Below are positions 37,595-59,171 of a stretch of 64,000 bases of DNA, in pieces. How positions within the stretch are numbered: the stretch's first letter is position 1; every line of letters begins with the position of its first letter. The DNA lies in assembly GCF_900323885.1 (NCBI RefSeq), contig NZ_OOHJ01000005.1, positions 372,001 through 436,000 on the forward strand. Reading direction: 5' to 3'. A program made the position numbers and the translations under genes. The notes beneath the pieces are model-generated. The model ran no database searches, was not told the DNA's origin, and saw only the letters and a program-made list of their open reading frames with translations. Source of the stretch: [Actinomadura] parvosata subsp. kistnae. GTDB taxonomy: Bacteria > Actinomycetota > Actinomycetes > Streptosporangiales > Streptosporangiaceae.

Positions 37595-37724
37595 ACGCGC
37601 ACCTGGGAAGGTGCCGGGGGCGGGGCGCGGGTCGTGTCACCCGTGCCCCGTCCCCGGCCCTTCGCTCGCCCCACCAGCGGCGCACCGGCCTTCCGTACGC
37701 CGCCACCCCGAAGGAAACATGCCA

Positions 37725-39233: not shown

Positions 39234-39304
39234 GTGGACCGGGCGGGGCCGCCCGGTTCACCCGCAAGCAGGCCCTCAGCACCCATCCTCCCCGGAGCCC
39301 AACG

Positions 39305-41544: not shown

Positions 41545-42825
41545 TTAGTCGCGGGGGTTCCAGCCGTCGGTGTCCACGGCGAGGTCGAGGTCGTCGGCGA
41601 TGTCGTCCCAGTCGACGAACTTGAAGTTGGTGTTCTCCCGATCCGGCACCTCAGGCGTGTTGGCGCCGTCGTGGGCGATGAACATGCCGTGGTCGAAGTC
41701 CCCGAGCGGGACGTTGATCACGGCGGAGCCGTCGCTGTGCTCGACCCCGTCGAGCCCGTTGCCGTCCGCGACGCGGAACTGGCCGACGTAGGCGTTGCCG
41801 GGTTCGCGGCGGTAGACGGCGAAGGTGTTGTCGCCCTGGCTGGAGGCGAGCAGGTAGCCCTTGCCGTTCTCGCGGTAGTAGATGGTCAGGCCCTCGGCGT
41901 CGGCCGACAGGTGGGTGCCGCCGTAGCCGGGGTCGGCGCCGGGGGTGCACTCCTCGGTGGCGGGGTCGTAGGTGCCGGGGACGCCGTACTCCTTGACCTT
42001 GTCGACCAGGACGGGCGTGCCGGTGAGGTCGGCGCGGACGCGCCAGATGCCCACGTCCTCCTGGGCGGCGTAGAGGACGTCGCGCTGCTGGTCGACGACC
42101 ATGCCCTCGACCTGGGCGAGCTCGTCGGGCTCCATGCAGGGGGCCCAGGTGGTGCCGTTGGGGAGGGTGAAGGAGGCGGGCAGGTCGAGGGCGCGGACCT
42201 TCTGGTAGCCGACCTTGCCGCCGGCGGTGGCGACCAGCTTGAACAGGCCGATGGAGGTCTTGTGGCGGCGGCTCACGAGGGCGTACGTGCCGGTGGCGTC
42301 CTTCCAGGTGGTGAGGCCGTAGCCGGTCTCCTGGTCGTTGACCTGCGCCTGCGTGGTGTTGAACAGGAACGGCACGGCGGGGTCGGTGACGTCGGTGAGG
42401 TGGCCGTCGCGGATGGCGTAGAAGCGGAGCTGGTCGCGGCCCCGGTCGGAGACGACGGCCAGGTCCTTGCCGGCGAAGCCGTAGGTGGTGTCGACGTTGT
42501 TGAAGCGGCCGTTCTCGTCGTCGGGGCCGGGGGCGGCGGGGGCGTCGAAGTGCTGGAGCTGCTGCCCGTCGAGGTCGTAGACGTTGAGGCCGCCTTCCTT
42601 GGCGGTGGTGACGATGACGCTGTCCTCGTCGTCGTCCGGGTCGACCCAGATCGCCGGGTCGTCGCCGTTGGCGTTGCCGCCGGCCTCGTCGTCGAACAGG
42701 GCGGGGGTCTCGACCTGCGGGTCGACGGACGCGACCGTGTTGGCGGAGGCGGCGGTGGGTGCGGTTAAGCCTCCCATGAGGAGGGTGGCGAGGGCGGTCA
42801 GCAGGACGGGGTGGGGGCGACGCAT
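41545..42825 (-). CDS. Secreted beta-propeller phytase
   Basis: 426 residues from ATG 42825 (AAGGAG 5 bases upstream). Signal peptide to about residue 28 (PTAASA). The mature protein is a six-bladed beta-propeller phytase: NGDDPAIWVDPDD (about 54-66) and LSADAEGLTIYY are the two family signature motifs, and the many Asp residues build the calcium sites that hold substrate phosphates. These enzymes remove phosphates stepwise from calcium phytate and usually leave lower inositol phosphates. It stands beside an inositol catabolic operon and shares a TGTC-NN-GACA palindrome with it, which points to feeding inositol phosphates into that pathway. Confidence 0.95.
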   Translation of the reverse strand: MRRPHPVLLTALATLLMGGLTAPTAASANTVASVDPQVETPALFDDEAGGNANGDDPAIWVDPDDDEDSVIVTTAKEGGLNVYDLDGQQLQHFDAPAAPGPDDENGRFNNVDTTYGFAGKDLAVVSDRGRDQLRFYAIRDGHLTDVTDPAVPFLFNTTQAQVNDQETGYGLTTWKDATGTYALVSRRHKTSIGLFKLVATAGGKVGYQKVRALDLPASFTLPNGTTWAPCMEPDELAQVEGMVVDQQRDVLYAAQEDVGIWRVRADLTGTPVLVDKVKEYGVPGTYDPATEECTPGADPGYGGTHLSADAEGLTIYYRENGKGYLLASSQGDNTFAVYRREPGNAYVGQFRVADGNGLDGVEHSDGSAVINVPLGDFDHGMFIAHDGANTPEVPDRENTNFKFVDWDDIADDLDLAVDTDGWNPRD

Positions 42826-42876
42826 CGTACTCCTTGTGCAGTGGGTGATCGTGTGGTGCAGAGGAGAAGACATTGT

Positions 42877-42890
42877 CATGTCAGGACATG
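42877..42890. promoter_or_regulatory. TGTC-NN-GACA operator before the phytase
   Basis: CATGTC-AG-GACATG is a perfect inverted repeat 52 bp upstream of the phytase start. Its core TGTCAGGACA is identical to 44646-44655 before the inositol operon. From memory, it also resembles the GntR-type IolR site of Corynebacterium (KGWCHTRACA) at nine of ten positions. Confidence 0.65.
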
Positions 42891-43320: not shown

Positions 43321-44496
43321 TCAGCGGTGGTTGACGCGCCAGAAGTCGGAGGCGACCTGCCGGTTCTGCAGGTCCGAGACCAGAGCCTTCGGGTCGGTGT
43401 GGAAGAGCTGGCCCTTCCAGTCGGCCAGGCCGGCGGGGGTGACCCGGGGCTGGACGGTGCTGTTGCCGGAGATGCCGCCCTCGCCGATCTCGTGCTTGAC
43501 GCCCTCCTCGGTCATGATGAAGCGGGCGTACAGCTTGGCCGCGTTCGGGTGCTTCGACTTGGTGGCGACGGCGACGTACTTGGGGTAGCTGAAGCCGGTG
43601 AAGGGGGTCATGCCGGCGCAGGCGGCCTGGGTGTAGCCCTTGTCCTCGTTGTTGCGGAACTTGGAGATCGACATGAAGCCGATCTTCTTGTCGGTGGCGC
43701 CGGGCGCGCCGACGGCGCCGGAGATGTCCTCGTCGGAGCCGGTCAGGACGGGTTTGTTGGCCGCCAGGCGCTTGATCCACTCGTAGGCGGCGCTCTTCTC
43801 CTCGGTCTTGAGCGGTTCGCCGTACTTGGCCTGGTACGCCTGCTCCAGCGCCTGGTTGCCGTGCGCGTCGAGCTGGGTGAAGAAGGACAGGACGGTCGGC
43901 TTGCCGAGCGGGTCCTGCATGACGAGCTTGCCGGACCAGGCGGGCTCGGTGAGCTCCCAGATGTTCTTGATCGGGCAGCCGCCGGGCGACAGCTTGGTGT
44001 TGTAGGCGAAGACGGTGGCCTTGGACAGGGCGCGCAGCGGGTTGCGGTCCTCGGGCAGGATCTGGTCCTGGAGGTCGGCGGGCACCCACGTCTGGACGAT
44101 GCCCTGCGGGATGAGCTGCCCCATCAGCACGCCGCCGTCCTCGTACATGGCGGCGTCGATGGTGACGTTGTCGGCCGCGTGCTCGCGGGTCATCTTCTCG
44201 GCCGTCTGCGGGGTGTCGGACTTCACGCCTTCCATGGCGATGCCGTACTTCGCGGTGAAGGCCGCGGCCACCTCCTCGATGTCGCCGCTGGAGTCGTAGA
44301 CGAGCAGGCTGCCTTCCTTCTTGGCCGCCGCGACCAGCGCGTTCAGGTCGAAGTCGGCGTCGACGGAGGCCGCGGGCAGCGGCTTGCCGGCCGCCTGCGC
44401 GCCGCCAGGCTGGCCGGCCTGGCCGGCGGTGGACGGTGCGCATGCGGCCAGGGCCAGCAGGGCCGCAACAGGGACGATCTTCTTCGTACGCCGCAT
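43321..44496 (-). CDS. ABC transporter substrate-binding lipoprotein (Fe3+/phosphonate-type fold)
   Basis: 391 residues. Lipobox LAAC (Cys19). The mature part is a class of solute-binding protein usually paired with fused permeases (Fe3+, thiamine, phosphonate or sugar-phosphate importers): LLVYDSSGDIEEVAAAFTAKYGI, FAYNTKLSPGGCPIKNIWELTEPAWSGKLVMQDPLG, and GGISGNSTVQP near the end. The matching permease and ATPase are inside the divergent inositol operon (52343-55263). It shares a 218-bp control region with that operon containing two TGTC-NN-GACA sites. A phosphorylated inositol is a reasonable ligand, but this is inference. Confidence 0.88.
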   Translation of the reverse strand: MRRTKKIVPVAALLALAACAPSTAGQAGQPGGAQAAGKPLPAASVDADFDLNALVAAAKKEGSLLVYDSSGDIEEVAAAFTAKYGIAMEGVKSDTPQTAEKMTREHAADNVTIDAAMYEDGGVLMGQLIPQGIVQTWVPADLQDQILPEDRNPLRALSKATVFAYNTKLSPGGCPIKNIWELTEPAWSGKLVMQDPLGKPTVLSFFTQLDAHGNQALEQAYQAKYGEPLKTEEKSAAYEWIKRLAANKPVLTGSDEDISGAVGAPGATDKKIGFMSISKFRNNEDKGYTQAACAGMTPFTGFSYPKYVAVATKSKHPNAAKLYARFIMTEEGVKHEIGEGGISGNSTVQPRVTPAGLADWKGQLFHTDPKALVSDLQNRQVASDFWRVNHR

Positions 44497-44594
44497 GGTG
44501 GCGGTACTCCTCGTGACTCGCAGTGCCGTACGCGCCGCCCTCCGCCCCGATCGGCGCCGCGGTGGGCTCCACGATGAACGGGAGATTAATAAGT

Positions 44595-44655
44595 TGTCAA
44601 GACATACTCATGTCAGTGATGAGGTGACGTGTCTATTCGTCGTTATGTCAGGACA
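44595..44655. promoter_or_regulatory. Two TGTC-NN-GACA operators in the divergent SBP/iol control region
   Basis: TGTCAAGACA (44595-44604) and TGTCAGGACA (44646-44655), 51 bp apart, lie between the start of the SBP (44496, minus) and the inositol operon (44715, plus). The second is identical to the core of the phytase site at 42879-42888. A half-like copy, TGTCAGTGAT, lies at 44611. The spacing close to whole helical turns fits a dimeric repressor acting on both promoters. Confidence 0.65.
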
Positions 44656-44714
44656 AACTATTGACGTTCACTTTCCGTTCATCTACAACTGGAGCCTCTG
44701 AGCGAGGAGGCGGC

Positions 44715-45806
44715 ATGCGTGTGGGCTTGATGGGCCTGGGACGGATCGGGCGGTTTCATGCGGGAACGTTACCCAGGCTGGCCGGCGAGCTGATCGTGGC
44801 CGACGCCGACCGGCGCCTGGCCGAGGAGGTGGCCGCCGAGACCGGCGCCGTGGTGGGAGACCCGTGGAGCGCGGACGCCGTGGTGATCGCGACCCCGACC
44901 TCCACCCACGCCGAGCTGCTCCTGCGGGCCTGCGAGCAGCGGATCCCCGTCTTCTGCGAGAAGCCCGCGGCGCCCGGCGTGGCCGAGACCAAGCGGGTGG
45001 CCGAGGCGGCCGACCGCAGCGGGACCCTCGTGCACATCGGCTTCCAGCGGCGCTTCGACCCCGGGTTCGCCGCGGCCCGGCAGGCGCTGCTCGGCGGCGC
45101 GCTGGGCGAGCTGCACCGCGTCCACCTCCTGACCGGTGACCCGCGCCCGCCGGCGCCGGAGTACGTCCCCCTCTCGGGCGGCATCTTCCGCGACTGCCAC
45201 ATCCACGACTTCGACATCCTGCGCTGGGTGACCGGGCTGGAGGCCGAGACCGTCTACGCCGCCGGCGCCAACCGGGGCGAGGCGTTCTTCGCGGCGGCCG
45301 GGGACGTCGACACCAGCGCCGCGCTGATCACCATGGCCGACGGCACGCTCGTCACCCTCCAGGGCTCCCGCTACAACGGCGCCGGCTACGACGTGCGGAT
45401 GGAGCTGGCCGGCACCCGGGCCACCTGGGCGGCCGGCCTGGGCCCGCGAACGCCCCTGCACCGCGCCGACGCCGGCGCCGACGAGGGAGCCGACGGCAGG
45501 GCCGCGAACGGGGCCGACGCCACATCCGACGGCAGGGCCGTCAACGGGGCCGTCAACAGGGCCGGCAACAGGGCCGGCAACAGGGCCGATGACGGTGCCT
45601 CCTCCGAGGGGCCGTGGCCGGACTTCCAGGCCAGGTTCGCCGCCGCGTACACGGCCGAGATCGAGGCGTTCCTGGCTGCCGCGCGCGGCGAGCGCGGCAG
45701 CCCGTGCACCGCCGGCGACGCGCTGGCCGCGCTGTACCTGGCGGAGGCGGCCGACCTGTCCCGCCGCGAGGGACGCCCGGTCCAGCTGGCGGAGGTGACC
45801 AAGTGA
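44715..45806 (+). CDS. Inositol 2-dehydrogenase-like Gfo/Idh/MocA oxidoreductase
   Basis: 363 residues from ATG 44715 (GAGGAGG just upstream). Rossmann loop GLMGLGRIGRFHAG (residues 4-17), EKP motif at 82-84, catalytic DCHIHDFD at 160-167, the pattern of inositol dehydrogenases (IolG), which oxidise myo-inositol to scyllo-inosose with NAD. First gene of the operon, and its place before IolE/IolC/IolD-like genes supports this substrate. Oddly, residues 251-298 are an Ala/Gly/Asn/Arg low-complexity insert encoded by 12-bp tandem repeats between the substrate domain and the last helix; it probably forms a flexible loop. Confidence 0.85.
   Translation: MRVGLMGLGRIGRFHAGTLPRLAGELIVADADRRLAEEVAAETGAVVGDPWSADAVVIATPTSTHAELLLRACEQRIPVFCEKPAAPGVAETKRVAEAADRSGTLVHIGFQRRFDPGFAAARQALLGGALGELHRVHLLTGDPRPPAPEYVPLSGGIFRDCHIHDFDILRWVTGLEAETVYAAGANRGEAFFAAAGDVDTSAALITMADGTLVTLQGSRYNGAGYDVRMELAGTRATWAAGLGPRTPLHRADAGADEGADGRAANGADATSDGRAVNGAVNRAGNRAGNRADDGASSEGPWPDFQARFAAAYTAEIEAFLAAARGERGSPCTAGDALAALYLAEAADLSRREGRPVQLAEVTK
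45465..45608 (+). repeat. In-frame low-complexity repeat insert in the dehydrogenase
   Basis: About 144 bp of GC-rich repeats inside the coding frame. The clearest part is GTCAACAGGGCC then GGCAACAGGGCC twice (45552-45587); earlier parts repeat GACGGCAGGGCC and AACGGGGCC. All units are multiples of 3, so the frame is kept. Confidence 0.8.
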
Positions 45807-45865
45807 GCGGCGCAGATCGCGGAGGCCCGCACGTGGGCGGCCCAGATCGCGGAGGCGATCACCTG
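45791..45865 (+). repeat. Triplicated 30-bp translation-start module
   Basis: GGAGG occurs at 45791, 45821 and 45851, exactly 30 bp apart, each followed 7 bases later by GTG (45803), GTG (45833) and CTG (45863). The second and third modules share GATCGCGGAGG. The repeat lies at the dehydrogenase/IolE junction and adds 20 codons to the front of IolE if the first GTG is used. Confidence 0.8.
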
Positions 45866-46708
45866 AGGACGGCTGCCGCGCCCATCTCGTGGGGTGTGTG
45901 CGAGGTGCCGGGCTGGGGATACCAGCTCGACCCGGAGCGGGTCCTGGGGGAGATGGCCGAGCTCGGTCTGGACGCCACCGAGCTCGGGCCGGACGGGTTC
46001 CTGCCGCCCGCCGCCGACGAGCGCTCGCGCCTGCTCGACCGCTACGGCCTGCGGGTCGTCGGCGGGTTCGTGCCCGTCGTGCTGCACGACCCGGACCACG
46101 ACCCGCTGCCGGGCGTGCGCGCCCTGCTCGGCTCGTTCGAGGAGGAGGCGGTGGTCGTGCTGGCGGCGGCCACCGGCGCGGCGGGCTACGACGCCCGGCC
46201 CGCGCTCGACGCCCGCGGCTGGCGGACGCTGCTCGCCAACCTCGACCGCATCGCCGGCGCCCTCCGCCACCCGGTGGCGCTGCACCCGCACGTCGGCACC
46301 ATGGTCGAGACCGCCGAAGAGGTGGACAGGGTGCTCGACGGCAGCGCCGTCCCGCTGTGCCTCGACACCGGCCACCTCCTCGTCGGCGGCGCCGACCCGG
46401 TGGCGCTCGCGTCCCGCGCCGCCGGGCGGATCGCCCACGTCCACCTCAAGGACGTCGACGCCACGCTGGCCGAACGGGTGAGGGGCGGCGCGATGAGCTA
46501 CACCGAGGGGGTGCGCGCCGGGATGTACCGGCCGCTGGGCCGGGGCGACGTGGACGTCAAGGCCATCGTCACCAGCCTGACCGCCGCCGGCTACACCGGC
46601 TGGTACGTCATGGAGCAGGACGTCGTCCTGGACGCCGAGCCGCCCGCCGGCGCCGGCCCGATCGGCGAGGTACGCGAGAGCCTGTCCTTCCTGCGGAGCC
46701 TCGCGTGA
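45803..46708 (+). CDS. iolE: Inosose dehydratase-like sugar phosphate isomerase/epimerase (IolE)
   Basis: 301 residues from GTG 45803, which overlaps the dehydrogenase stop (GTGA) and has GGAGG 7 bases upstream. The first 20 residues are two 10-residue repeats from the 30-bp module; homologues normally begin near the AAAPISWGVCEVPGWGYQ motif (residue 24). TIM-barrel metal enzyme: PVALHPHVGTMVET, PLCLDTGHLLVGG and IAHVHLKDVD carry the expected metal ligands. IolE removes water from scyllo-inosose to give the dione used by IolD. GTG 45833 is an equally good alternative start. Confidence 0.88.
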   Translation: MSGADRGGPHVGGPDRGGDHLRTAAAPISWGVCEVPGWGYQLDPERVLGEMAELGLDATELGPDGFLPPAADERSRLLDRYGLRVVGGFVPVVLHDPDHDPLPGVRALLGSFEEEAVVVLAAATGAAGYDARPALDARGWRTLLANLDRIAGALRHPVALHPHVGTMVETAEEVDRVLDGSAVPLCLDTGHLLVGGADPVALASRAAGRIAHVHLKDVDATLAERVRGGAMSYTEGVRAGMYRPLGRGDVDVKAIVTSLTAAGYTGWYVMEQDVVLDAEPPAGAGPIGEVRESLSFLRSLA

Positions 46709-47784
46709 ACGAAGAGCCGAACGCGGAGCGGGCCGGCGCCGAAGCGCCGGTCACGGGACGCGCTGGTGCCGGAGCGCCGATCACGCGGCCGGCCGGCGCC
46801 GACGCGCCGACCACGGGGCGGGCCGGTGCCGAAGTGCTGACCATGGGGCGGGCCGGGGTCGACCTCTACCCCCTCCAGACCGGGGTCCCGCTCGACGAGG
46901 TGGAGACGTTCGGCCGGTATCTGGGCGGCAGCCCCACCAACGTGGCCGTCGCCGCCGCCCGGCTGGGCCGCACCGCCGCCGTGATCACCAGGACGGGGAA
47001 GGACCCGTTCGGCGCGTTCGTCCGGCGGGCGCTGCGCGGCTACGGCGTGGACGACCGGCACGTGACCGCCGTCCCCGGGCTGCCGACCCCGCTGACGTTC
47101 TGCGAGATCCGGCCGCCGGAGGACTTCCCGCTGTTCTTCTACCGCCTGCCGAAGGCCCCCGACCTGGAGATCCGCCCGGACGAGCTCGACCTGGACGCCA
47201 TCGCCCGCGCCCCGCTGTTCTGGGCGACGCTGACCGGGCTGTCGCAGGAGCCCTCCCGGCAGGCGCACTTCGCCGCGTGGCGGGCGCGGGGCCGCAGGCC
47301 GTACACGGTGCTGGACCTGGACTACCGGCCGATGTTCTGGACGGACCCGCGGCAGGCGGCCGAGCAGGCCAGGCGGGCGGTCGGGCACGCCACCGTCGTG
47401 GTGGGCAACGTGGACGAGGCCGAGGTGGCCACCGGCGTCCGCGAGCCGCGCCGCGCCGGTGAGGCGCTGCTGGCGGCCGGGGTGGAGCTGGCGATCGTCA
47501 AGCGCGGCTCCGCCGGGGTGCTGGCGATGACCGCGCGGGAGTGCGTCGAGGTGCCCGCCGTGCCGGTCGAGGTCGTCAACGGCCTCGGCGCCGGTGACGC
47601 CTTCGGCGGTGCTCTGTGCCACGGCCTGCTGTCGGGCTGGCCGCTCGAACGTACGGTGCGCTTCGCCAACGCGGCGGGCGCCATCGTCGCCGGCCGCCTG
47701 GCCTGCGCGCCCGCGATGCCCACGGCCGGCGAGATCGACGCCCTGCTGACCAGCCGCGACGCCGAGGAGGCCGCGCATGCTTGA
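46705..47784 (+). CDS. iolC: IolC-like PfkB family kinase (5-dehydro-2-deoxygluconokinase)
   Basis: 359 residues from GTG 46705 (GTGA overlap with IolE; GGAG 7 bases upstream). Residues 1-46 are an extension made of four decapeptide repeats of the RAGAxAPxTG kind; homologues begin at MGRAGVDLYPLQ (ATG 46843, no ribosome site). PfkB fold with GGSPTNVAVAAARLG (substrate lid region) and NGLGAGDAFGGALCHGLL (catalytic Asp and anion hole). Phosphorylates 2-deoxy-5-keto-D-gluconate in inositol breakdown. Overlaps the next gene by 8 bases. Confidence 0.88.
   Translation: MNEEPNAERAGAEAPVTGRAGAGAPITRPAGADAPTTGRAGAEVLTMGRAGVDLYPLQTGVPLDEVETFGRYLGGSPTNVAVAAARLGRTAAVITRTGKDPFGAFVRRALRGYGVDDRHVTAVPGLPTPLTFCEIRPPEDFPLFFYRLPKAPDLEIRPDELDLDAIARAPLFWATLTGLSQEPSRQAHFAAWRARGRRPYTVLDLDYRPMFWTDPRQAAEQARRAVGHATVVVGNVDEAEVATGVREPRRAGEALLAAGVELAIVKRGSAGVLAMTARECVEVPAVPVEVVNGLGAGDAFGGALCHGLLSGWPLERTVRFANAAGAIVAGRLACAPAMPTAGEIDALLTSRDAEEAAHA
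46729..46848 (+). repeat. Four 30-bp coding repeats at the kinase N-terminus
   Basis: Units at 46729, 46759, 46789 and 46819, consensus CGGGCCGGTGCCGAAGCGCC followed by GACCACGGGG. The fourth unit holds the ATG (46843) that matches the start of homologous kinases; in the other three that codon is ACG. The array looks like duplication of the start region. Confidence 0.85.
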
Positions 47785-48751
47785 CGACTCCCCCAAGTGC
47801 ACGCTCACCAGGCGCCTGCCCGAGGACGCCTTCCACCGGCTGCGCGAGGATCGTGCCCGCTTCCCGGAGCGCGTGGTCCAGATGGCCGCCGGGCGGCGGC
47901 GCCGGCCCGTGCTGGCCGGACGCGACCAGCTGCTGATCATCGCCGCCGACCATCCGGCCCGCGGCGCGCTCGGCGCCGGTGACCGGCCGGCGGCGATGGA
48001 GAGCCGGCTCGACCTGCTCGACCGCCTGATGACCGCGCTGGCCAGGCCCGGCGTGGACGGGCTGCTGGCCACTCCGGACATCGTCGAGGATCTGCTGCTC
48101 CTCGGAGCCCTCGACGACAAGCTCGTCATCGGCTCGATGAACCGGGGCGGCGTGCAGGGCTCGGTCTTCGAGTTCGACGACCGGTTCACCGCCTACACCG
48201 CCGACTCGATCGCCGGGATGGGGCTGGACGGCGGCAAGATGTTGTGCAGGATCGCGCCGGAGGACTCCGCGACCGTGGCCACGCTGGAGCGGTGCGGGCA
48301 GGCCGTGTCGAGCCTGGCGGGGCACAGCCTCATGGCGATGATCGAGCCCTTCTGGTCCCGGCACGTGGGCGGCTCGGTCAAGCATGATCTGTCGGCGGCG
48401 GCGATGGTGCGGGCGATCAGCGTGGTGCAGGCGCTTGGCACGACCTCCGCCCGTACGTGGCTGAAGATCCCCGTGGTGGCGGACATGGAGCGGGTGATGG
48501 CGGCCACCACGCTGCCGACCCTGCTGCTCGGCGGCGACCCCGGGCAGGCGGCGGACGAGGCGTTCGCCGCGTGGGGGAAGGCGCTGCGGCTGCCGGGCGT
48601 GCGCGGCCTGGTGGTCGGCCGGGCCCTGCTGTACCCGCCGGGCGACGACGTGGCGGCGGCGGTGGACGCGGCGGCGAGCCTGCTGCACCAGGCGCCCCTC
48701 TCGAACGCGGCGGTCCTGGACCAGGCACCGGACGCGGGGGAGCGCCGATGA
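47777..48751 (+). CDS. Cgl0159-family (beta/alpha)8 protein, probable inositol-pathway aldolase
   Basis: 324 residues, ATG overlapping the kinase end by 8 bases. It belongs to the Cgl0159 family named from the Corynebacterium inositol locus (from memory), distant relatives of class I aldolases: LLIIAADHPARGALG, DGLLATPDIVEDLLLLGALDDKLVIGSMNRGG, WLKIPVVADMERVMAATTLPTLLLGGDPG. It occupies the place where the IolJ aldolase would be, which splits 2-deoxy-5-keto-gluconate 6-phosphate into DHAP and malonate semialdehyde; that role is inferred. Overlaps IolD by 4 bases (ATGA). Confidence 0.82.
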   Translation: MLDDSPKCTLTRRLPEDAFHRLREDRARFPERVVQMAAGRRRRPVLAGRDQLLIIAADHPARGALGAGDRPAAMESRLDLLDRLMTALARPGVDGLLATPDIVEDLLLLGALDDKLVIGSMNRGGVQGSVFEFDDRFTAYTADSIAGMGLDGGKMLCRIAPEDSATVATLERCGQAVSSLAGHSLMAMIEPFWSRHVGGSVKHDLSAAAMVRAISVVQALGTTSARTWLKIPVVADMERVMAATTLPTLLLGGDPGQAADEAFAAWGKALRLPGVRGLVVGRALLYPPGDDVAAAVDAAASLLHQAPLSNAAVLDQAPDAGERR

Positions 48752-51565: not shown

Positions 51566-52218
51566 ACCGGCCAGGACGGCGGCGGCGCGGGCTCGCGCGG
51601 GCGTGGGACGACCTGCGCGGCAGATCGTCCCGGCGCGTCGTCGGCCTGGTCAGGGCGCAGATCGCGGTCGCCAGAGCGGGCGCCGAGCTGGCGGGCCAGA
51701 TGGCCGGCGGGCACGACCGCTCGCTGGCCCGCGCCCGCATGGCCGAGATCGAGCACCAGGGCGACGCGGCGCGCGCCGAGCTGGTGACGCTGCTGCGGCG
51801 GGTCCTGGTGACGCCCATCGACCGGGAGGACCTGTTCCGCCTGTCCCGCTCCATCGACGACGTGCTCGACCAGCTGCGCGACTACGTCCGCGAGGCCGAC
51901 CTCTTCGGCCCCGGCGACCTCGGCTTCGCCACCGAGCTGCTCCAGGCGCTCACCAAGGGCCTGGACGAGCTCGAACGCGCCGTGCAGCACATGATCGACG
52001 AGCCCGGCTCCGTCACCGAGGCGGTGCTGGCCACCCGCAAGGCCAGGACCCGCATGCGGCAGCTGCGCCAGAGCCGGCTCGGCGAGCTGTTCACCGGCAC
52101 GCTGGACATGGACACGCTGCGCCGCCGCGAGCTGCTCTCCCGCCTCGACGCCGTCGGCCAGCGCCTCGGCGAGGCCGCCGACGCGCTGGCCGACGCGATG
52201 CTCAAACGAAGCCACTAG
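51556..52218 (+). CDS. PhoU-like DUF47 family protein, partner of the Pit transporter
   Basis: 220 residues from ATG 51556, overlapping the Pit end by 10 bases (GTG 51562 is an alternative). All-helical with a repeated heptad-like pattern; RARMAEIEHQGDAARAELVTLLRRVLVTPIDREDLFRLSRSIDDVLDQL is the characteristic DUF47 segment (metal-binding Glu/Asp). Such proteins almost always sit beside Pit transporters and are thought to tune them. Its last codons and TAG stop form the first unit of a 30-bp tandem repeat (52206-52308). Confidence 0.9.
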   Translation: MAVNRPGRRRRGLARAWDDLRGRSSRRVVGLVRAQIAVARAGAELAGQMAGGHDRSLARARMAEIEHQGDAARAELVTLLRRVLVTPIDREDLFRLSRSIDDVLDQLRDYVREADLFGPGDLGFATELLQALTKGLDELERAVQHMIDEPGSVTEAVLATRKARTRMRQLRQSRLGELFTGTLDMDTLRRRELLSRLDAVGQRLGEAADALADAMLKRSH

Positions 52219-52308
52219 AGCCGGCCGCGGCTCGGACGAAGCCACTAGAGCCGGCCGCGGCTCGAACGAAGCCACTAGAGCCGGCCGCGGCTCGGACGAA
52301 GCCACTGA
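52206..52308 (+). repeat. 30-bp tandem repeat covering the DUF47 stop codon
   Basis: Three full units (52206, 52236, 52266) and a partial fourth (52296) of a 30-bp sequence that begins ACGAAGCCACTAGAGCCGGC. Units differ at only one base. Unit 1 includes the last residues (RSH) and the TAG stop; the rest fills most of the gap before the ABC permease. Each unit holds the palindrome AGCCGGCCGCGGCT-like stem sequence, so the RNA could form a row of small hairpins. Confidence 0.9.
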
Positions 52309-52342
52309 AGCTCCCATGAGACCCCCCGAAGGAAACGCATCC

Positions 52343-54172
52343 ATGGCTGTTCGCACCAAGGCGGCGCCACCGCCCCCACCGCCGCTGAGACGCCGCAGGC
52401 TGCTCTACCGCCTGCGCGTCCTGCGCCACGACCCGACCGCCGTGCTGGGCCTGATCCTGGTCGGCGTGCTGGCCTACCTGGTCGTCGCCCCGCTCGTCGC
52501 GGTGCTGTCCGACGCCTTCCGCCTGCAGTACGGCGACGAGGTGCACGCCGGGCAGCAGCCGGGTGAGTGGACCGGCTACTACCTGTGGCGGGTGTTCCGC
52601 TCGCAGGTCAGCGGCCTGCTGTTCTACGAGCCGCTGCTCAACACGCTGGTCGTCTCGCTCGGCACGGTGCTGTTCGCGCTGGTCGTGGGCGGCGGCATGG
52701 CGTGGATGGTGACCCGCACCAACGTGCCGGGGCGCAGGTGGCTGGCGGGGGCGCTCGTGGTGCCGTACATGCTGCCCTCGTGGACGTTCTCGCTGGCCTG
52801 GCTGACCCTGTTCAAGAACGACCGGGCCGGCGGGCAGGTCGGCGTGCTCCAGGCGCAGGGCATTCGGACGCCCGACTGGCTGGCGTACGGGCCGCTGCCG
52901 ATCGTCGTGACGCTCGGCCTGCACTACTACCCGTTCGTGTTCCTGCTGGTCGGCAACGCGCTGCGGCGGATCGACGCGCAGCTTGAGGACTCGGCCCGCA
53001 TCCTGGGCGCGCCCCGGCGGGTGGTGGTGCGCAGGATCGTGGCGCCGCTCATGCTGCCGGCGCTGTCGTCGGCGGTGCTGCTGGTCGTGGGCCGGGTGCT
53101 CGGCACGTTCGGCACGCCGTACGTGCTGGGCCTGCCGGCCGACTACCGGGTCCTGTCGACCGGGCTCTACCAGGCGATCCGCGACCGCAGCACGGGCGTG
53201 GCCTCGGTGCTGACCGCCGTCATCGTGATCATCGGCGTGCTGATCGTCTTCTGCGACGCCCGGCTGCTGCGCGAGCACCGCCGCTTCGTCACCGTGGGCG
53301 GCAAGGGCGCCATGGACCGGCTCTCCGACCTGCGCACCTGGCGGTGGCCGGCGTTCGCGCTGGGCGCGGTGATCTTCGTGGTGAGCGTCGTGGTGCCGGT
53401 GCTGACGCTGCTGCTGTCGTCCCTCACCCGCACGCCCATGGACCTGTCGACGCTGACGCTGAGCTACTGGTTCGCCGACAGCCTCCCGGGCGCGGTCGGG
53501 TTCCCGCACGGGATCTTCCGCGGCTCCGAGCTGTGGACCGCGGCCTGGAACTCGCTGCGCATCGTCGGGCTCGCCTCGGTGATCTGCGCGGTCGCCGGCC
53601 TGCTCATCGGGTACGTGGTGGTGCGCGGCTCGGCGCCGAGGATCGCCGCCTTCCTGCGGCAGGTGTCGTTCCTGCCGTACCTCATCCCGGGCATCGCGTT
53701 CGCGGCGGCGTCGCTGTCGCTGTTCGCGGTGGCGCGCGGCCCGGTGCCCGCGCTCTACGGCACCACGTTCCTGCTCATCCTGGTCATGGCCGTGACCCAC
53801 CTGCCCTACAGCTCCCGCTCGGGCATCGCGGCGATGACGCAGCTCGGCCGCGACCCGGAGGAGGCCGCGCAGATCGCCGGCGCTAACTGGTGGCAGCGCA
53901 TGCGGCGGATCGTCTTCCCCATCCAGAAGGGGGCGCTCGTCACCGGGATCGTGCTGCCGTTCATCTCCGGGCTCAAGGAGCTGAGCATCGTGGTCATGCT
54001 GACCACGACCGGCACCGAACTGCTCACCACCCTGTCGATCGGCCTGGTCGACTACGGCTACACCCAGCTCGCCAACGCGGTCGTCCTCGTGATCGCGCTG
54101 GTCTCGTTCACCATGACCTACCTGACGCAGCGGCTCACCAAGAGCAGCCTCGCGTCCGGCCTGGGAGGATAG
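52343..54172 (+). CDS. Fused two-module ABC permease (Fe3+/phosphonate type)
   Basis: 609 residues from ATG 52343 (AAGGA 9 bases upstream; ATG 52316 lacks a site). Two homologous permease halves in one chain, about 12 helices. Each half has an EAA loop: DSARILGAPRRVVVRRIVAPLMLP (about residues 220-243) and EAAQIAGANWWQRMRRIVFPIQKG near residue 520. This fused layout is typical of FbpB/SfuB-like importers for Fe3+, phosphonates or phosphorylated organics. The likely binding protein is the divergent 43321-44496 gene and the ATPase is next, so the importer belongs to the inositol regulon. Confidence 0.9.
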   Translation: MAVRTKAAPPPPPPLRRRRLLYRLRVLRHDPTAVLGLILVGVLAYLVVAPLVAVLSDAFRLQYGDEVHAGQQPGEWTGYYLWRVFRSQVSGLLFYEPLLNTLVVSLGTVLFALVVGGGMAWMVTRTNVPGRRWLAGALVVPYMLPSWTFSLAWLTLFKNDRAGGQVGVLQAQGIRTPDWLAYGPLPIVVTLGLHYYPFVFLLVGNALRRIDAQLEDSARILGAPRRVVVRRIVAPLMLPALSSAVLLVVGRVLGTFGTPYVLGLPADYRVLSTGLYQAIRDRSTGVASVLTAVIVIIGVLIVFCDARLLREHRRFVTVGGKGAMDRLSDLRTWRWPAFALGAVIFVVSVVVPVLTLLLSSLTRTPMDLSTLTLSYWFADSLPGAVGFPHGIFRGSELWTAAWNSLRIVGLASVICAVAGLLIGYVVVRGSAPRIAAFLRQVSFLPYLIPGIAFAAASLSLFAVARGPVPALYGTTFLLILVMAVTHLPYSSRSGIAAMTQLGRDPEEAAQIAGANWWQRMRRIVFPIQKGALVTGIVLPFISGLKELSIVVMLTTTGTELLTTLSIGLVDYGYTQLANAVVLVIALVSFTMTYLTQRLTKSSLASGLGG

Positions 54173-55263
54173 ATGCCTGCGATCGAACTGAGCGGCGTCG
54201 CCAAGAGCTACGGCGGCGGCGACCACGCGGTCAGGAACCTCGACCTCGTCGTCCCGACGGCGCTTTCATGTGCCTGCTCGGCCCCTCCGGGTGCGGCAAG
54301 ACCACCACCCTGCGCATGATCGCCGGGCTGGAGCAGCCGTCGGCCGGCACCATCGCGGTCGGCGGGCGCGTCCTCGACTCCGTGGAGCAGGGCGTGTACG
54401 TCCCGCCGGAGAAACGCGGGATGGGGCTCGTCTTCCAGAGCTACGCGCTGTGGCCGCACCTGTCGGTACGCGAGAACGTCGAGTTCGGGCTGCGCATGCG
54501 CAAGGTGCCGGCGCCCGAGCGGCGCTCCCGCGCGGAGGCGGCGCTGAAGATGGTGCACGTCTTCGACGCCATGGACCGCTACCCGTCCCAGCTGTCGGGC
54601 GGGCAGCAGCAGCGGGTCGCGCTGGCCCGCATGCTCGCCGTCGACCCGGAGGTGCTGCTGCTGGACGAGCCGCTGTCCAACCTGGACGCCCGCCTGCGGC
54701 TGGAGATGCGGGCCGAGCTGAAGCGCATCCACGAGGAGTCGGGCGCCACCATCGTCTTCGTCACCCACGACCAGCTCGAGGCGCTGACCATGGCCACTCA
54801 CGTGGCCGTGATGAACCAGGGCGAGCTGCAGCAGCTCGCCCCGCCCATGGAGATGTACGCCCGCCCGGCCAACCGGTTCGTCGCCGAGTTCGTCGGCAGC
54901 CCCGCGATGGCCATCGTGGATGCCGGCCCGGCACCGGGCGGGCTGGCCGCCTCGCTGCTGGCGCACGTCCAGGGGCACGACCGCCCGGCGGCGTTCGGCA
55001 TCAGGCCGGAGGCGCTGCACCTTGGGACGCCGCCGCCGCCCGGCGCCTGGTCGGGGCCCGCCACGGTCGAGGCCGTGCTGCCGGCCGGCGCGTCGTGGAC
55101 GGTCCGGCTGCGCGTCCTGGACACCGAGCTGTTCGCCGTCACCCACACCCCGGTCGAGGCCGCCCCCGGCGACACTGTGACCTGCTGGACCGACCAGCTC
55201 CACCTGTTCGACGCCGCCGGGCTGCGCCTGCCGGCCCTGGACGATGTGGCAGCTCGCGCATGA
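54173..55263 (+). pseudogene. ABC transporter ATP-binding protein with a single-base frameshift
   Basis: ATG 54173 directly follows the permease stop (TAG-ATG). The first 27 codons read IELSGVAKSYGGGDHAVRNLDLVV, a normal start, then homology changes frame at the CCC run 54253-54255 and continues GAFMCLLGPSGCGKTTTLRM (Walker A). One added C would give the expected LVVPDGAF. The rest is intact: signature LSGGQQQRVALARML, Walker B VLLLDEPLSNLDA, H-loop VFVTHDQ, and a TOBE domain. As written, only a shortened protein from ATG 54268 could be made, without the A-loop strand. Sequencing error or real mutation cannot be separated here. Confidence 0.87.
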
Positions 55264-56066
55264 CCCCGCCGAACGCCGTGCCGGCCTCGCCGAAGGCCCC
55301 GCTGACCTCGCCGAAGGCCCTGCTGCTCGACTTCGGCGGTGTGCTGGTCGAGACCGCCAGACGCCCGGGGTGGGCGGCCGAGCTGGCCGCCGACGTGCAC
55401 GCCCTGCTGGACCGCGCCGGTTTCGGCGGGCTGAGCCCTGCCGAGATCGAGACCGACATCCGGGCGGGCGCCCGCGCCGACTCCCGATGGAAGGACTCCA
55501 CCTCCCGCCAGTACGCGCCGCAGGAGATGACGCACCGCCGCTTCTGGGCGGAGTTCGTCGCGACGGACTGGCCGGAGCAGGCGCGGGAGCTGGTCACCGC
55601 CGAGGCGAGCCCGCTGTGCCGGCGCATGGGCGAGCTGCGCAGCGAGCGCGCCCTGCGCCCCGGCGTCAAGGAGCTGCTGGCCGCCTGCTGGGCGCGCGGC
55701 GTGCGCCCAGCCGTGGTCAGCAACGCCCTGTGCGGCCTCGTCCACCGCGACTTCCTGACCCGAAACGGCCTGGACGGGCAGGTGGCCGTGCAGGTCTACA
55801 GCGACGAGGCCGGCGTGCGCAAGCCGAACCCGGAGCTGATCCACATGGCCTGCCGGGCCCTGGCCGTCGATCCCGCCGAGGTCTGGTACGTCGGCGACAA
55901 CTACGACCGCGACGTCGTGTGCGGCGTGCGCGCCGGGGCCGGGGCGACCGTGCTCATGGTCTCGCCCAGCACGGACAAGATCCCGTACGAGGTGCGGCAG
56001 CGCCCGCACGCGACCGTCGACAACCCGCTCGGCCTGCTGAGACTGCTGGAGGACACGTGGACCTGA
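55260..56066 (+). CDS. HAD family phosphatase (inositol regulon)
   Basis: 268 residues, ATGA overlap with the ATPase gene. HAD motifs: I LLLDFGGVLVET (nucleophile Asp, but with Gly-Gly in place of the usual x-Asp acid/base), II VVSNA, III GVRKPNPELI, IV WYVGDNYDRDV. An inserted cap domain lies between motifs I and II. The first 20 residues include SPKAPLT/SPKALLL, coded by a 21-bp direct repeat (55287-55328). Possibly removes phosphate from an imported inositol phosphate or pathway intermediate; the substrate is not known. The altered motif I (DxG rather than DxD) occurs in some HAD subfamilies. Confidence 0.88.
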   Translation: MTPPNAVPASPKAPLTSPKALLLDFGGVLVETARRPGWAAELAADVHALLDRAGFGGLSPAEIETDIRAGARADSRWKDSTSRQYAPQEMTHRRFWAEFVATDWPEQARELVTAEASPLCRRMGELRSERALRPGVKELLAACWARGVRPAVVSNALCGLVHRDFLTRNGLDGQVAVQVYSDEAGVRKPNPELIHMACRALAVDPAEVWYVGDNYDRDVVCGVRAGAGATVLMVSPSTDKIPYEVRQRPHATVDNPLGLLRLLEDTWT

Positions 56067-56860
56067 CCACCTCGCGCGAGCTGGCCGCGATCGCGAGCCG
56101 GGCGGCCAGGGCCGTCGGCGACCGGTTGCGCGGCGCCTTCCGGTCCAGGCCGGAGGTGGCGACCAAGCGCGACTTCCACGACCCGGTGACCGAGCACGAC
56201 AAGGCGGCCGAGGAGGAGATCCGCGAGGTGCTGGCCCGCCACTGCCCGGACAGCCTCGTGGTCGGCGAGGAGGGCGGCAGCCAGGGCGACGGCACGGTGC
56301 ACTGGTACGTCGACCCGATCGACGGCACCGCGAACTTCGCCGCGGGGTTGCCGTTCTTCTGCACCTCGATCGGCGCGGCCGTGGACGGCGAGATGGTCGC
56401 GGGCGTCGTCTACGACCCGGTCCGCGACGACGAGTTCACCGCCTGGCTCGGCGGCGCGCAGTGCAACGGCGAGCCGATCCGCAGCACGGGGGCGCGCACG
56501 GACCGGGAGGCGGTGCTGCTGTCCAGCTATCCCGCGCCGCGCGACCTGGCCGCGGAGGGCGACGAGGCGCTGCACCGCTTCGCCCGCATGGTCAACGCCT
56601 TCGCCAGCACCCGCCGCCCGGGCAGCGCCGCGCTCAAGCTCGCGCACGTCGCCGCCGGCTGGTCCGACGTGGCCTTCGGCACGCACGTCAACGTCTGGGA
56701 CGTCGCGGCCGGCTCCCTGCTGGTACGTCAGGCGGGCGGCACGTACCTCCCCCTGTCGGGCAGCGTCTTCGCCCCCGGCGGCTACCTGGCCTGCGTCGGC
56801 GGGTTCGACCTCGACGGCTCCGTGATGGCCGAGGTGGCGACGGCGGTGAAGCCCGCATGA
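56057..56860 (+). CDS. Inositol monophosphatase family protein
   Basis: 267 residues from GTG 56057 (GGAGG upstream), overlapping the HAD gene by 10 bases. All family metal-site motifs are present: GEEGG (about residues 72-76), WYVDPIDGTANFAAGLPFF (about 84-102) and HVNVWDVAAGSLLVRQAGG (about 214-232). Such enzymes hydrolyse inositol monophosphates to free inositol with Mg2+, though some prefer other small phosphates. Inside this operon, next to inositol oxidation genes and a phytase, the literal substrate is unusually plausible: it would finish the dephosphorylation of imported inositol phosphates. Confidence 0.92.
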   Translation: MDLTTSRELAAIASRAARAVGDRLRGAFRSRPEVATKRDFHDPVTEHDKAAEEEIREVLARHCPDSLVVGEEGGSQGDGTVHWYVDPIDGTANFAAGLPFFCTSIGAAVDGEMVAGVVYDPVRDDEFTAWLGGAQCNGEPIRSTGARTDREAVLLSSYPAPRDLAAEGDEALHRFARMVNAFASTRRPGSAALKLAHVAAGWSDVAFGTHVNVWDVAAGSLLVRQAGGTYLPLSGSVFAPGGYLACVGGFDLDGSVMAEVATAVKPA

Positions 56861-57642
56861 TCCGCTGGATCGTCACCGACCTCGACGGCACCCTCGTCGG
56901 CCGCGACCTGGCGATGGTGCCGGCCAGCCGGGACGCCCTGCGCCGCTTCCGCGCGGCCGGCGGCCAGGTCGTCATCGCCACCGGCCGGATGGAACGCTCC
57001 GCCTTGCGCTACTACGAGGAGCTCGGCCTGGACGGCCCCGCCATCCTCTACAACGGCGCCAGGACGGTGAACCTGGCCACCGGCTCCGTCGGGCGCTCGT
57101 GCTCGCTGCCGCCGGAGGCGTGGAAGACGCTGCTGGCGATGTTCGACGACCTGCCGGACGGGGTCCACCCGGTCGCCTTCAGCGGCGGCGAGGCGTACGC
57201 GGTCGAGCGGGCGCCCGCCCTGCGCGACTACGCCCGGCGCGACGGGATCACGCTGCGCGACCCGGGCGACTGGACCGCGCTGCCCGCCGGGGACGTCACC
57301 AAGTGCATGCTGATCGGCGACCCGCTGCCCGACCCGGACATCCCGGGCACCGTCACCACCCGCTCCGAGGCCACGTACCTGGAGATCCTGCCCGAGGGCG
57401 CCACGAAGGGCAGCGCCCTGCGCGAGCTGGCGGCGGCGGCCGGCGTGCCGCCGCGCGAGATCGCCGCCGTCGGCGACAACCCCAACGACCTCGACATGAT
57501 CGAGCTCGCCGGGCTCGGGGCGGCGGTGGGGGACGGCCACCCCACCGTGCGCGCGGCGGCCGACGTGGTCGTCCGCGCCTGCGCCGACGGGGCCGTGGCG
57601 CACGTCGTGGAGCTGGCCTGCCAGGCCAACGGCTGGTCCTGA
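56857..57642 (+). CDS. Cof-type HAD hydrolase (HAD-IIB)
   Basis: 261 residues, ATGA overlap. Motif I IVTDLDGTLVGRD (DxD nucleophile and acid/base), motif II IATGR, Lys of motif III in GATKGSALREL, motif IV AVGDNPNDLDMIELAG; the C2 cap lies between. Cof-type enzymes are cytosolic sugar-phosphate phosphatases with broad activity. Second HAD enzyme of the operon; together with the inositol-monophosphatase-like gene it gives three intracellular phosphatases in a row, which fits stepwise removal of phosphates from a multi-phosphorylated import. Confidence 0.92.
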   Translation: MIRWIVTDLDGTLVGRDLAMVPASRDALRRFRAAGGQVVIATGRMERSALRYYEELGLDGPAILYNGARTVNLATGSVGRSCSLPPEAWKTLLAMFDDLPDGVHPVAFSGGEAYAVERAPALRDYARRDGITLRDPGDWTALPAGDVTKCMLIGDPLPDPDIPGTVTTRSEATYLEILPEGATKGSALRELAAAAGVPPREIAAVGDNPNDLDMIELAGLGAAVGDGHPTVRAAADVVVRACADGAVAHVVELACQANGWS

Positions 57643-57659
57643 GAGCTGAGGAGTCGCAA

Positions 57660-59171
57660 GTGACGAAGACGGTCAAGCATTGGATCAACGGGGCTCTCGC
57701 GGACGGCGATTCCGCCCGTGCCGCGGAGCTGTTCGACCCGGCCACCGGCGAGGTGAGCGGGCACGTCGCGCTGGCCTCGGCGGCCGACGTGGACGCGGCC
57801 GTCGCCGCCGCGTCCGCCGCCTTCCCGGCCTGGCGCGACACCTCGATCTCGCGGCGCGCGCAGGTGCTGTTCCGCTTCCGCGAACTGCTGGCGGGGCACC
57901 TGGACGAGATCGCGGCGGCCATCTCGGCCGAGCACGGCAAGGTGCACTCCGACGCGCTGGGCGAGGTGGCGCGCGGGCTGGAGGTGGTGGAGTTCGCCTG
58001 CGGGATCCCGCACCTGCTCAAGGGCGGCTTCTCCGAGGGCGTCTCGACGCGGGTGGACTCCTACTCGATCCGGCAGCCGCTGGGCGTGGTGGCCGGGATC
58101 ACGCCGTTCAACTTCCCGGCGATGGTGCCGATGTGGATGTTCCCGGTGGCGATCGCGTGCGGGAACACCTTCGTGCTCAAGCCGTCGGAGCGGGATCCGT
58201 CGGCGTCGCTGCTGATAGCCCGGCTGTGGCAGCAGGCCGGCTTGCCGGACGGCGTGTTCAACGTGGTGCAGGGCGACAAGGTGAGCGTGGACCGGCTGCT
58301 GGAGCACCCGGACGTGCGCGCGGTCTCGTTCGTCGGCTCCACCCCCATCGCGAGCTACGTGTACGCGACCGGCACCGCGCACGGCAAGCGGGTGCAGGCC
58401 CTGGGCGGGGCGAAGAACCACATGCTGGTGCTGCCGGACGCGGACCTGGACCTGGTGGCCGACTCGGCGGTGTCGGCCGGGTTCGGCTCGGCGGGCGAGC
58501 GGTGCATGGCGATCTCGGTGGTGCTGGCCGTGGACCCGATCGGTGACGAGCTCGTCGCCAAGATCGTCGAGCGGGTCGCGAAGCTGACCGTGGGCCCCGG
58601 CGATGACCCCCGCTCGGAGATGGGGCCGCTGGTCACGGCCGCGCACCGGGACAAGGTGGCCTCCTACCTGGACCTCGGCGTGGAGGAGGGCGCCAAGCTG
58701 GTCGTGGACGGCCGCCGGAGCACGCTCGTCAGCGGCGAGCAGGCGGACCAGGCGGCCGGGTTCTGGCTCGGCCCGACCGTGCTCGACCACGTGCCGGTCG
58801 GGTCGCGGGTGCACACCGAGGAGATCTTCGGCCCGGTGTTGTCGATCGTGCGGGTCCGCTCTTATGAGGAGGGCCTGGAGGTGATCAACGGCGGCGCGTA
58901 CGGCAACGGCACCGCCGTGTTCACCAACGACGGCGGCGCGGCCCGGCGCTTCCAGAACGAGGTCGAGGTCGGCATGGTGGGCATCAACGTGCCGATCCCG
59001 GTGCCGATGGCGTTCTACAGCTTCGGCGGCTGGAAGTCCTCGCTGTTCGGCGACACGCACGTGCACGGCACCGAGGGCGTGCACTTCTACACCCGCGGCA
59101 AGGTCGTCACCTCCCGCTGGCTCGACCCCTCCCACGGCGGCGTGAACCTGGGCTTCCCCACGAACGGGTAG
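57660..59171 (+). CDS. mmsA: Methylmalonate/malonate-semialdehyde dehydrogenase, CoA-acylating (IolA/MmsA)
   Basis: 503 residues from GTG 57660 (GAGGAG 6 bases upstream). Aldehyde-dehydrogenase fold with NAD site (PFNFPAMVPMWMFPVAIACGNTFVLKPSE), catalytic Cys282 in SAGERCMAI, and GGAKNHM in place of the usual general-base Glu, the mark of the CoA-dependent MmsA/IolA branch. In inositol breakdown it converts malonate semialdehyde to acetyl-CoA; in valine breakdown it takes methylmalonate semialdehyde. The operon context favours the inositol role. Last gene of the operon; it ends 5 bases before a convergent gene with no visible terminator. Confidence 0.95.
   Translation: MTKTVKHWINGALADGDSARAAELFDPATGEVSGHVALASAADVDAAVAAASAAFPAWRDTSISRRAQVLFRFRELLAGHLDEIAAAISAEHGKVHSDALGEVARGLEVVEFACGIPHLLKGGFSEGVSTRVDSYSIRQPLGVVAGITPFNFPAMVPMWMFPVAIACGNTFVLKPSERDPSASLLIARLWQQAGLPDGVFNVVQGDKVSVDRLLEHPDVRAVSFVGSTPIASYVYATGTAHGKRVQALGGAKNHMLVLPDADLDLVADSAVSAGFGSAGERCMAISVVLAVDPIGDELVAKIVERVAKLTVGPGDDPRSEMGPLVTAAHRDKVASYLDLGVEEGAKLVVDGRRSTLVSGEQADQAAGFWLGPTVLDHVPVGSRVHTEEIFGPVLSIVRVRSYEEGLEVINGGAYGNGTAVFTNDGGAARRFQNEVEVGMVGINVPIPVPMAFYSFGGWKSSLFGDTHVHGTEGVHFYTRGKVVTSRWLDPSHGGVNLGFPTNG

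Follow-up and report, generated by a model that had tools for sequence, protein, structure and literature searches.

A candidate phytate-carbon regulon in [Actinomadura] parvosata subsp. kistnae joining a phytase, a predicted inositol-phosphate importer and inositol catabolism genes

Background

Plants store phosphorus mainly as phytate, and bacterial phytases are usually described as scavengers of phosphate, the free inositol being a by-product for others. Beta-propeller phytases leave inositol tris- and bisphosphates (InsP3 and InsP2) as end products. May a bacterium take in these leftovers and use the ring as carbon? The question is raised by a locus of [Actinomadura] parvosata subsp. kistnae, residing in a 64-kb stretch of DNA (NZ_OOHJ01000005.1, positions 372,001 to 436,000; hereafter the window) on contig C21 of the 13.56-Mb genome. 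Genes for a secreted beta-propeller phytase and for the substrate-binding protein (SBP) of an ATP-binding cassette (ABC) importer, both on the minus strand, diverge here from a plus-strand operon (44715-59171) encoding, in this order, IolG-like and IolE-like proteins, IolC, a Cgl0159-type protein, IolD, Pit, DUF47, the ABC permease and ATPase, a HAD family IA protein, an inositol-monophosphatase-family (IMPase-family) enzyme, a Cof-type HAD protein and MmsA (Table 1). An earlier note, made from the sequence alone, had read these genes as a complete-looking phytate utilisation system under one control. The present analysis gives roughly two chances in three that phytase, inositol-phosphate importer, phosphatases and inositol (iol) genes form a phytate-carbon regulon under one operator and a predicted IolR.

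Results

A palindromic operator shared by phytase, importer and iol genes

The palindrome TGTCNNGACA is found in intergenic DNA once before the phytase gene and twice between the SBP gene and iolG. No further match to WTGTCNNGACAW was found in the window, also when one mismatch was tolerated. Three matches per 64 kb are unremarkable by themselves, as 36 of 100 shuffled sequences reach this number when one mismatch is allowed, and 6 of 100 do so with the exact ten-base core; the operator argument therefore rests on placement and on relatives. Genome-wide, 21 sites were counted, against 4 for the reversed pattern. Seven of them lie at five inositol or phytate promoters: the three in the window, two ahead of an iolC operon on contig C35, one before an IolG paralogue gene on contig C22, and one before a GntR gene on contig C11.

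Relatives were fetched by SBP homology, and genes were read by tblastn in 80 named loci of 108 relatives, 46 close (actinobacterial, 855 kb) and 34 distant. The 46 close loci hold 72 copies of WTGTCNNGACAW, 71 of which are in the zones directly upstream of cluster genes, although these zones make up 5.8% of the bases. Control palindromes, corresponding to the 11 other permutations of the WTGTCNNGACAW half-site, add up to 17 copies in the same loci, none in an upstream zone. The operator is present in the zones of 32/46 SBP, 24/36 phytase, 12/31 iolG, 6/16 Pit, 4/24 iolE, 2/2 Cgl0159 and 1/3 IMPase genes, one site counting at times for two divergent genes. It is missing from the zones of permease (0/13), HAD2, the Cof-type gene (0/11), HAD1, the other HAD gene (0/7), DUF47 (0/3), iolB (0/2), iolD (0/1) and mmsA (0/1). 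At least one exact site is carried by all 18 Streptosporangiaceae loci, all 8 Streptomyces loci and all 6 loci of other taxa, and by 3 of the 14 Actinomadura loci.

The second iol operon and iolB

The earlier note spoke of a complete-looking system, but the inositol pathway of the window is incomplete. The whole set (iolG, E, D, B, C, aldolase, A) is not found at one locus; iolB is missing from the window cluster, and the only KduI/IolB match of the genome is on C35, within an iolC-Cgl0159-iolB-iolD operon (C35:1622000-1640000; L003:9133-13698) preceded by two operator copies. The C35 iolC, Cgl0159 and iolD proteins are 59-70% identical to those of the window. The IolG paralogue encoded on C22 is 58% identical to the window IolG, and its gene has the operator 65 bp upstream.

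A GntR-UTRA candidate regulator

The genome-wide operator list also supplied a candidate regulator. The C11 gene has the operator 37 bp before its start, and encodes a protein with GntR (PF00392) and UTRA (PF07702) domains, its frame being lost near the 3' end, beside a G run (L008 near 5350). Matches at E 1e-40 or better were found in 70 genomes of a family sample of 120. In 30 regulator loci examined among all matches, the exact operator is found within 120 bp upstream in 26, and the remaining four carry TCGTCAGGACAT there. A motif scan for a GntR gene beside the cluster found none in the loci first examined; four further loci do have one, next to SBP and iolG genes in L127 and L129, and inside importer-HAD-IMPase clusters devoid of phytase in L166 and L167, both from class-level genomes. 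The regulator gene is near the phytase gene in L106, L108, L109 and L112; in some genomes it is close to an IMPase-family gene or to iolE. Several homologues are annotated by their sources as 'myo-inositol degradation transcriptional regulator'. A GntR domain joined to an effector domain, and one operator common to the promoters of the iol genes and of the regulator gene itself, are features of GntR-type IolR proteins, and the C11 protein is a predicted IolR. The palindromic TGTC..GACA-like site resembles the sites of these regulators, the motif of Corynebacterium glutamicum being KGWCHTRACA.

In three loci of family genomes (L131, L133, L136) phytase and GntR regulator genes are neighbours under the operator, and no importer is found.

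A phytase repressor of unknown identity, reportedly at work in Streptomyces coelicolor, could not be linked to the operator.

Conservation of the cluster

Linkage counts refer to all 80 loci; iol genes or phosphatases missing from a locus may reflect the end of the flank only. Phytase genes reside in 32/32 close loci longer than 20 kb, and in 0/27 distant loci; if short loci are included, the figures are 40/46 and 0/34. HAD2 genes were found in 33/46 close and 0/34 distant loci, HAD1 genes in 35/46 and 7/34, IMPase genes within 7 kb in 32/46 and 25/34, at least two iol genes in 29/46 and 6/34, respectively. Among the distant loci, the alphaproteobacterial L090 has iolC, iolD, iolE, iolB, two IMPase-family genes and the importer genes, all in the same orientation. 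MmsA adjoins the cluster in only 2 of the 46 close loci, within the flanks examined. Gene order differs between families, and linkage is kept. The close SBPs span six actinobacterial families; that of the window shares 91% identity with an SBP bearing the name Nonomuraea dietziae, and lies nearest to Streptosporangiaceae rows in the SBP tree.

A further survey covered 296 genomes sampled evenly from the class. Phytase genes were found in 36 genomes. In addition to the genomes with an SBP of at least 45% identity, which are weighed below, five have an SBP of 30-33% identity. Phytase and importer genes are neighbours in the window's genome and in G097; in the 36 phytase loci of the other 35 genomes, a whole importer adjoins phytase only in L132, which is the G097 locus. 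Two loci (L142, L168), the phytases of which are from one genus, feature a distant ABC ATPase gene (43-44%) a few kb away, and L142 also a weak permease match (26%).

Further variation was observed among the relatives. Three or four SBP copies lie beside one permease and one ATPase gene in L070, L071, L074 and L075 (Rhizobiales, Primorskyibacter, Microbacterium), accompanied by one or two IMPase-family genes; a single importer may serve several ligands (isomers) there. Seven loci from Streptomyces and Actinocatenispora (L052, L055, L057, L058, L060, L061, L063) feature four phosphatases, two of the HAD1 type in addition to IMPase and HAD2.

The importer and its binding protein

The model of the SBP (mean predicted local distance difference test score, pLDDT, 88.8) points to a fold of the FbpA/AfuA type, common to ferric, metal-citrate, glucose-6-phosphate (AfuA, VcA0625) and P5PA binding proteins. 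Classical inositol ABC importers, such as that of IbpA, have SBPs of the sugar-type Peripla_BP families; the window SBP matches SBP_bac families only. Sources often label its homologues iron(III) transport system. The Tyr-Tyr iron-ligand site lies outside the residue-level alignments to iron binders, and a match missing among the PDB structures excludes no ligand class. The permease scores 138 bits with the model of PhnU2 (cut-off 593) and the ATPase 299 bits with that of PhnT2 (cut-off 458), both from 2-aminoethylphosphonate ABC systems; the ferric ATPase NCBIfam model gives 250 bits, under its cut-off of 496.

In AfuA, according to the text available for PMC4546632, the phosphate is held by S37 and T150, the sugar by H205, D206 and E229. 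In a low-identity profile alignment, taking the numbering of the paper as chain index minus two, these five residues fall on T95, T201, S278, K279 and P305 of the window SBP, in which the sugar-binding residues of AfuA are thus not kept. Residues were monitored in 46 close SBP rows (the window and 45 loci, L097 being left out because its SBP is split) and 44 distant rows, some of which are paralogues from within one locus. K101, K159, K199, K279, R281 and K306 are invariant in all close rows. Among distant rows, R281 is kept in 44, K279 in 35, K199 as K or R in 36, K306 in 13 and K101 in 13. A pocket predicted to be cationic at the position of the acidic site of AfuA is consistent with a ligand phosphorylated at both ends.

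Phosphate signals

Signals of the phosphate-starvation (PHO) regulon were assessed by motifs, single-base shuffles serving as control. Paired 11-nt GTTCACC-type repeats, as in PHO regulons, are found at the iolG promoter (Table 1), the window having one other hit of this kind; they were not seen at the window's phytase gene, nor in full at its SBP gene. In relatives, a PHO score of at least 11 is reached by 15/38 SBP promoters (corrected from 16/39 by removal of row L044, a slicing artefact), compared with 1.7% of shuffles, by 5/31 iolG promoters (0.6% of shuffles), and by 7/37 promoters of cluster phytases (0.9%).

Evenly sampled phytase promoters (36 rows, the window phytase being left out, and row L168 having no upstream sequence) reach the score in 19/36 cases, 0.6 being expected. 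The operator was found in 5 of the 36, 4 of which are from the window's own family, and was dropped as an explanation for ordinary stand-alone phytases. Promoters of cluster phytases in Streptosporangiaceae show the operator within 200 bp in 13/17 cases, and a PHO score of at least 11 in 1/17. Because PHO boxes are frequent in the sampled phytases, and the operator in Streptosporangiaceae clusters, ordinary actinobacterial phytases look phosphate-controlled, and those of the clusters may be inositol-controlled. A Streptomyces phytase is listed among phosphate-starvation genes in the part of PMC3282765 available. In Streptosporangiaceae, both signals seem to be present at importer and iol promoters.

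Gene content of the locus

Pfam and NCBIfam searches bear out the genes named in the earlier note, in place and order (Table 1). IolC, IolD, the Cof-type HAD protein and MmsA pass the curated cut-offs; IolG and IolE do not, and are family-like only.

Table 1. Genes and control sites of the locus, with positions in the window
Feature	Position	Strand	Matches and remarks
Secreted beta-propeller phytase	41545..42825	-	PF02333, E 2e-60, 205 bits (cut-off 21)
Operator ATGTCAGGACAT	42878..42889		53 bp upstream of phytase ATG
SBP lipoprotein, predicted inositol-phosphate binder	43321..44496	-	SBP_bac_8/SBP_bac_11; L-A-A-C lipobox
Operator TTGTCAAGACAT	44594..44605		98 bp upstream of SBP ATG
Operator ATGTCAGGACAA	44645..44656		59-70 bp upstream of iolG ATG
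PHO-box-like pair of 11-nt direct repeats GTTCACTTTCC-GTTCATCTACA	44666..44687	+	iolG promoter
IolG-like inositol dehydrogenase	44715..45806	+	GFO_IDH_MocA; TIGR04380, 255 bits, under cut-off 355
IolE-like dehydratase	45803..46708	+	AP_endonuc_2; TIGR04379, 144 bits, under cut-off 290
IolC kinase	46705..47784	+	PfkB; TIGR04382, 371 bits, passes cut-off 300
Cgl0159-type aldolase-like protein	47777..48751	+	PF22649, E 2.9e-120
IolD	48748..50586	+	Thiamine pyrophosphate (TPP) enzyme; TIGR04377, 878 bits, passes cut-off 715
Pit phosphate transporter	50586..51565	+	PHO4, matched in two frames
DUF47 / PhoU-like partner of Pit	51556..52218	+	PF01865 (PhoU_div)
Fused ABC permease	52316..54172	+	Two BPD_transp_1 stretches; alternative start ATG 52343
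ABC ATPase with TOBE_2	54173..55263	+	ABC_tran
HAD family IA phosphatase-like protein	55260..56066	+	PF00702/PF13419
Inositol-monophosphatase-family enzyme	56057..56860	+	PF00459 (Inositol_P), E 2e-54
Cof-type HAD-IIB phosphatase	56857..57642	+	Hydrolase_3; TIGR00099, 141 bits, passes cut-off 137
MmsA/IolA CoA-acylating methylmalonate-semialdehyde dehydrogenase (MMSDH)	57660..59171	+	Aldedh; TIGR01722, 727 bits, passes cut-off 448.5

The phytase aligns with solved Bacillus phytases (best chain 1poo_A, E 1.5e-44), and its start is most plausibly ATG 42825, where the predicted signal peptide begins, rather than 42963. Alignment of the IMPase-family enzyme to SuhB reveals EEGG, DPIDGT and WD motifs. 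The earlier note describes the operon as tightly overlapping. From iolG to DUF47 adjacent genes do overlap by 1 to 10 bases; gaps of about 97-124 bp and of 17 bp separate DUF47 from the permease gene and the last HAD gene from MmsA. Between DUF47 and permease genes, a 30-bp tandem repeat (52206-52306; 3.4 copies, 97% matches) repeats the end of the DUF47 gene. The Pit gene is open in two frames, broken at about 51180-51210, and the ATPase gene likewise, at about 54255-54265. No phosphodiesterase was recognised in the operon by the Pfam scan, and no promoter was found by the promoter/terminator scan of the locus.

Upstream, the 28175-40252 region hosts a GH39 gene and a sugar ABC set, a LacI regulator, an esterase-domain protein, and a further SBP and permease; these genes are apparently unrelated to the cluster.

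Discussion

A proposed phytate-carbon regulon and its alternatives

The regulon proposed would work in the following way. The secreted phytase would trim phytate outside the cell, and an AfuABC-like ABC transporter would take up the incompletely dephosphorylated inositol phosphates that remain, the SBP binding multiply phosphorylated inositol, probably the InsP3 and InsP2 left by the phytase. Three cytosolic phosphatases would finish dephosphorylation, the phosphate removed by each being conjectural, and Pit/DUF47 may handle the phosphate released. The iol enzymes would burn inositol, IolB being supplied by the second iol operon on C35. The GntR protein would bind the operators and be released by inositol or a derivative, and PhoP might use the PHO-like repeats. 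A more specific version is offered tentatively, at somewhat less than even odds: the importer would be dedicated to inositol polyphosphates (InsP3/InsP2), the ring of which serves as carbon; in this lineage the phytase would have been rewired from control by phosphate starvation to an inositol repressor; and phytase-linked importers, with their extra invariant lysines and three phosphatases, may have become adapted to several phosphates, and their distant relatives in Micrococcales, Alphaproteobacteria and Vibrionaceae to one.

Several results weigh against the phytate-carbon regulon. The close SBPs are one lineage, set apart by a modestly supported branch (72/94), and linkage counts are therefore not independent events. 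An SBP of at least 45% identity is found in only 4 of the 296 class genomes. Conservation of the phytase neighbourhood, named in the earlier note as a check, holds for the long close loci across six families and fails in two of these four genomes: G215 and G289 (SBP 45-47%) have importer, HAD1, GntR and IMPase genes, and no phytase. Fourteen of the 21 genomic operator sites have no inositol neighbour, several being inside reading frames, hence a bare operator match is no evidence. The claim of one control stands insofar as the operator is shared, and also precedes the regulator gene; it does not extend to the phytase, SBP and iolG genes of the 14 Actinomadura loci, where only iolE has a site or a one-base variant. 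Iron binders of the FbpA type figure among the folds closest to that of the SBP, and the pocket argument depends on the low-identity profile alignment. The top NCBIfam score of the IMPase-family enzyme is histidinol-phosphatase, though under cut-off, and both IolG and IolE, being under theirs, are family-like only. Pit, ATPase and C11 regulator genes are all frame-broken in this assembly; assembly indels are the likely cause, decay the alternative. On balance, the case for coupling is much stronger than before, and the earlier interpretation as a whole partly supported.

Other explanations share parts of this evidence. The regulon may be real, and the importer carry inositol monophosphate or glycerophosphoinositol from membrane lipids, the phytase being only a co-regulated supplier of phosphate and inositol. 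Importers linked to IMPase-family genes and devoid of phytase, as found in 25/34 distant loci and in L166 and L167, would suit such ligands, IMPase being the phosphatase common to close and distant groups. This is unlikely, though, given the constant presence of phytase in the long close loci, the restriction of Cof-type HAD genes to close loci, the extra lysines invariant in the close SBPs only, and the lack of a recognised phosphodiesterase in the window operon.

More improbable is a PHO cluster, in which phytase, Pit and importer would serve phosphorus scavenging, the iol genes doing no more than getting rid of the carbon. The PHO-like repeat before iolG, the excess of high PHO scores at SBP promoters of relatives and at sampled phytase promoters, and the listing of a Streptomyces phytase among phosphate-starvation genes, in what is accessible of PMC3282765, are in line with it; the operator common to iol promoters and regulator gene, and its prevalence over PHO boxes at the phytase promoters of Streptosporangiaceae clusters, are not. 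Least probable of all is import of ferric iron, phosphonate or an unrelated ligand, the placement of the transporter being accidental. Ferric and metal-citrate binders among the nearest folds, the iron(III) labels of homologues, and a 2-aminoethylphosphonate permease as the best NCBIfam match of the permease, far under cut-off, speak for it. Yet linkage with IMPase-family, phytase and iol genes recurs across several families and phyla, the operator is shared, and neither phosphonate nor ferric cut-offs are reached.

If the phytate-carbon regulon holds true, the cell would eat the carbon of phytate, not only its phosphate, phytate becoming a private carbon source. The fate of the lower inositol phosphates left by beta-propeller phytases would be accounted for, and a testable function would be available for a transporter family found in several phyla and now often labelled iron(III) transport.

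Comparison with known systems

The closest transporter is AfuABC of Actinobacillus, which, from the accessible text of PMC4546632, shares with the system described here the Fbp-type SBP fold, a phosphorylated small polyol as (here proposed) ligand, and frequent annotation as iron transport. In contrast, H205, D206 and E229 of AfuA are not kept here, and phytase, phosphatase and iol genes are linked to the importer and share an inositol-type operator. The GntR-family regulator and the iol operon as its predicted target recall the GntR-type IolR regulons of C. glutamicum and Streptomyces. Here, the site is also found at phytase, ABC importer, Pit/DUF47 and phosphatase genes, targets for which no report was found in the portions of the literature available.

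Inositol regulons including an ABC transporter have been described elsewhere. In the InoEFGK regulon of Thermotoga maritima, as far as the text seen of PMC3750489 goes, the regulator belongs instead to the ROK family, no phytase or phosphatase is named, and inositol phosphate, tested as effector, gave no response. The IolR/IbpA-IatA-IatP module of Caulobacter likewise combines an inositol regulon with an ABC importer, but the regulator is of the RpiR family, the transporters are of other families, and no link to phytase is mentioned in the available part of PMC2597717, the authors of which speculate that an HlyB-family transporter might move inositol phosphates. A PF02333 phytase adjoins a transporter in Flavobacterium johnsoniae too; this transporter differs in being a TonB-dependent outer-membrane one, the response is to phosphate depletion, and inositol catabolism is not mentioned in the sections accessible of PMC8115612.

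No link between phytase and inositol-phosphate importer appears in a large survey of inositol clusters (PMC9430895, available in part), and a 2026 study of pig-gut isolates describes phytase genes as having no conserved neighbourhood across genera, judging from the accessible portion of PMC12838507. The earlier note knew of no such system; in the open-access literature, seen partly in excerpts and with most subscription papers outside the scope, no description of an inositol-phosphate ABC importer tied to phytase was found. Phytase, Fbp-type importer and iol regulon are each known; what would be new is their union in one regulon, and the transport substrate proposed.

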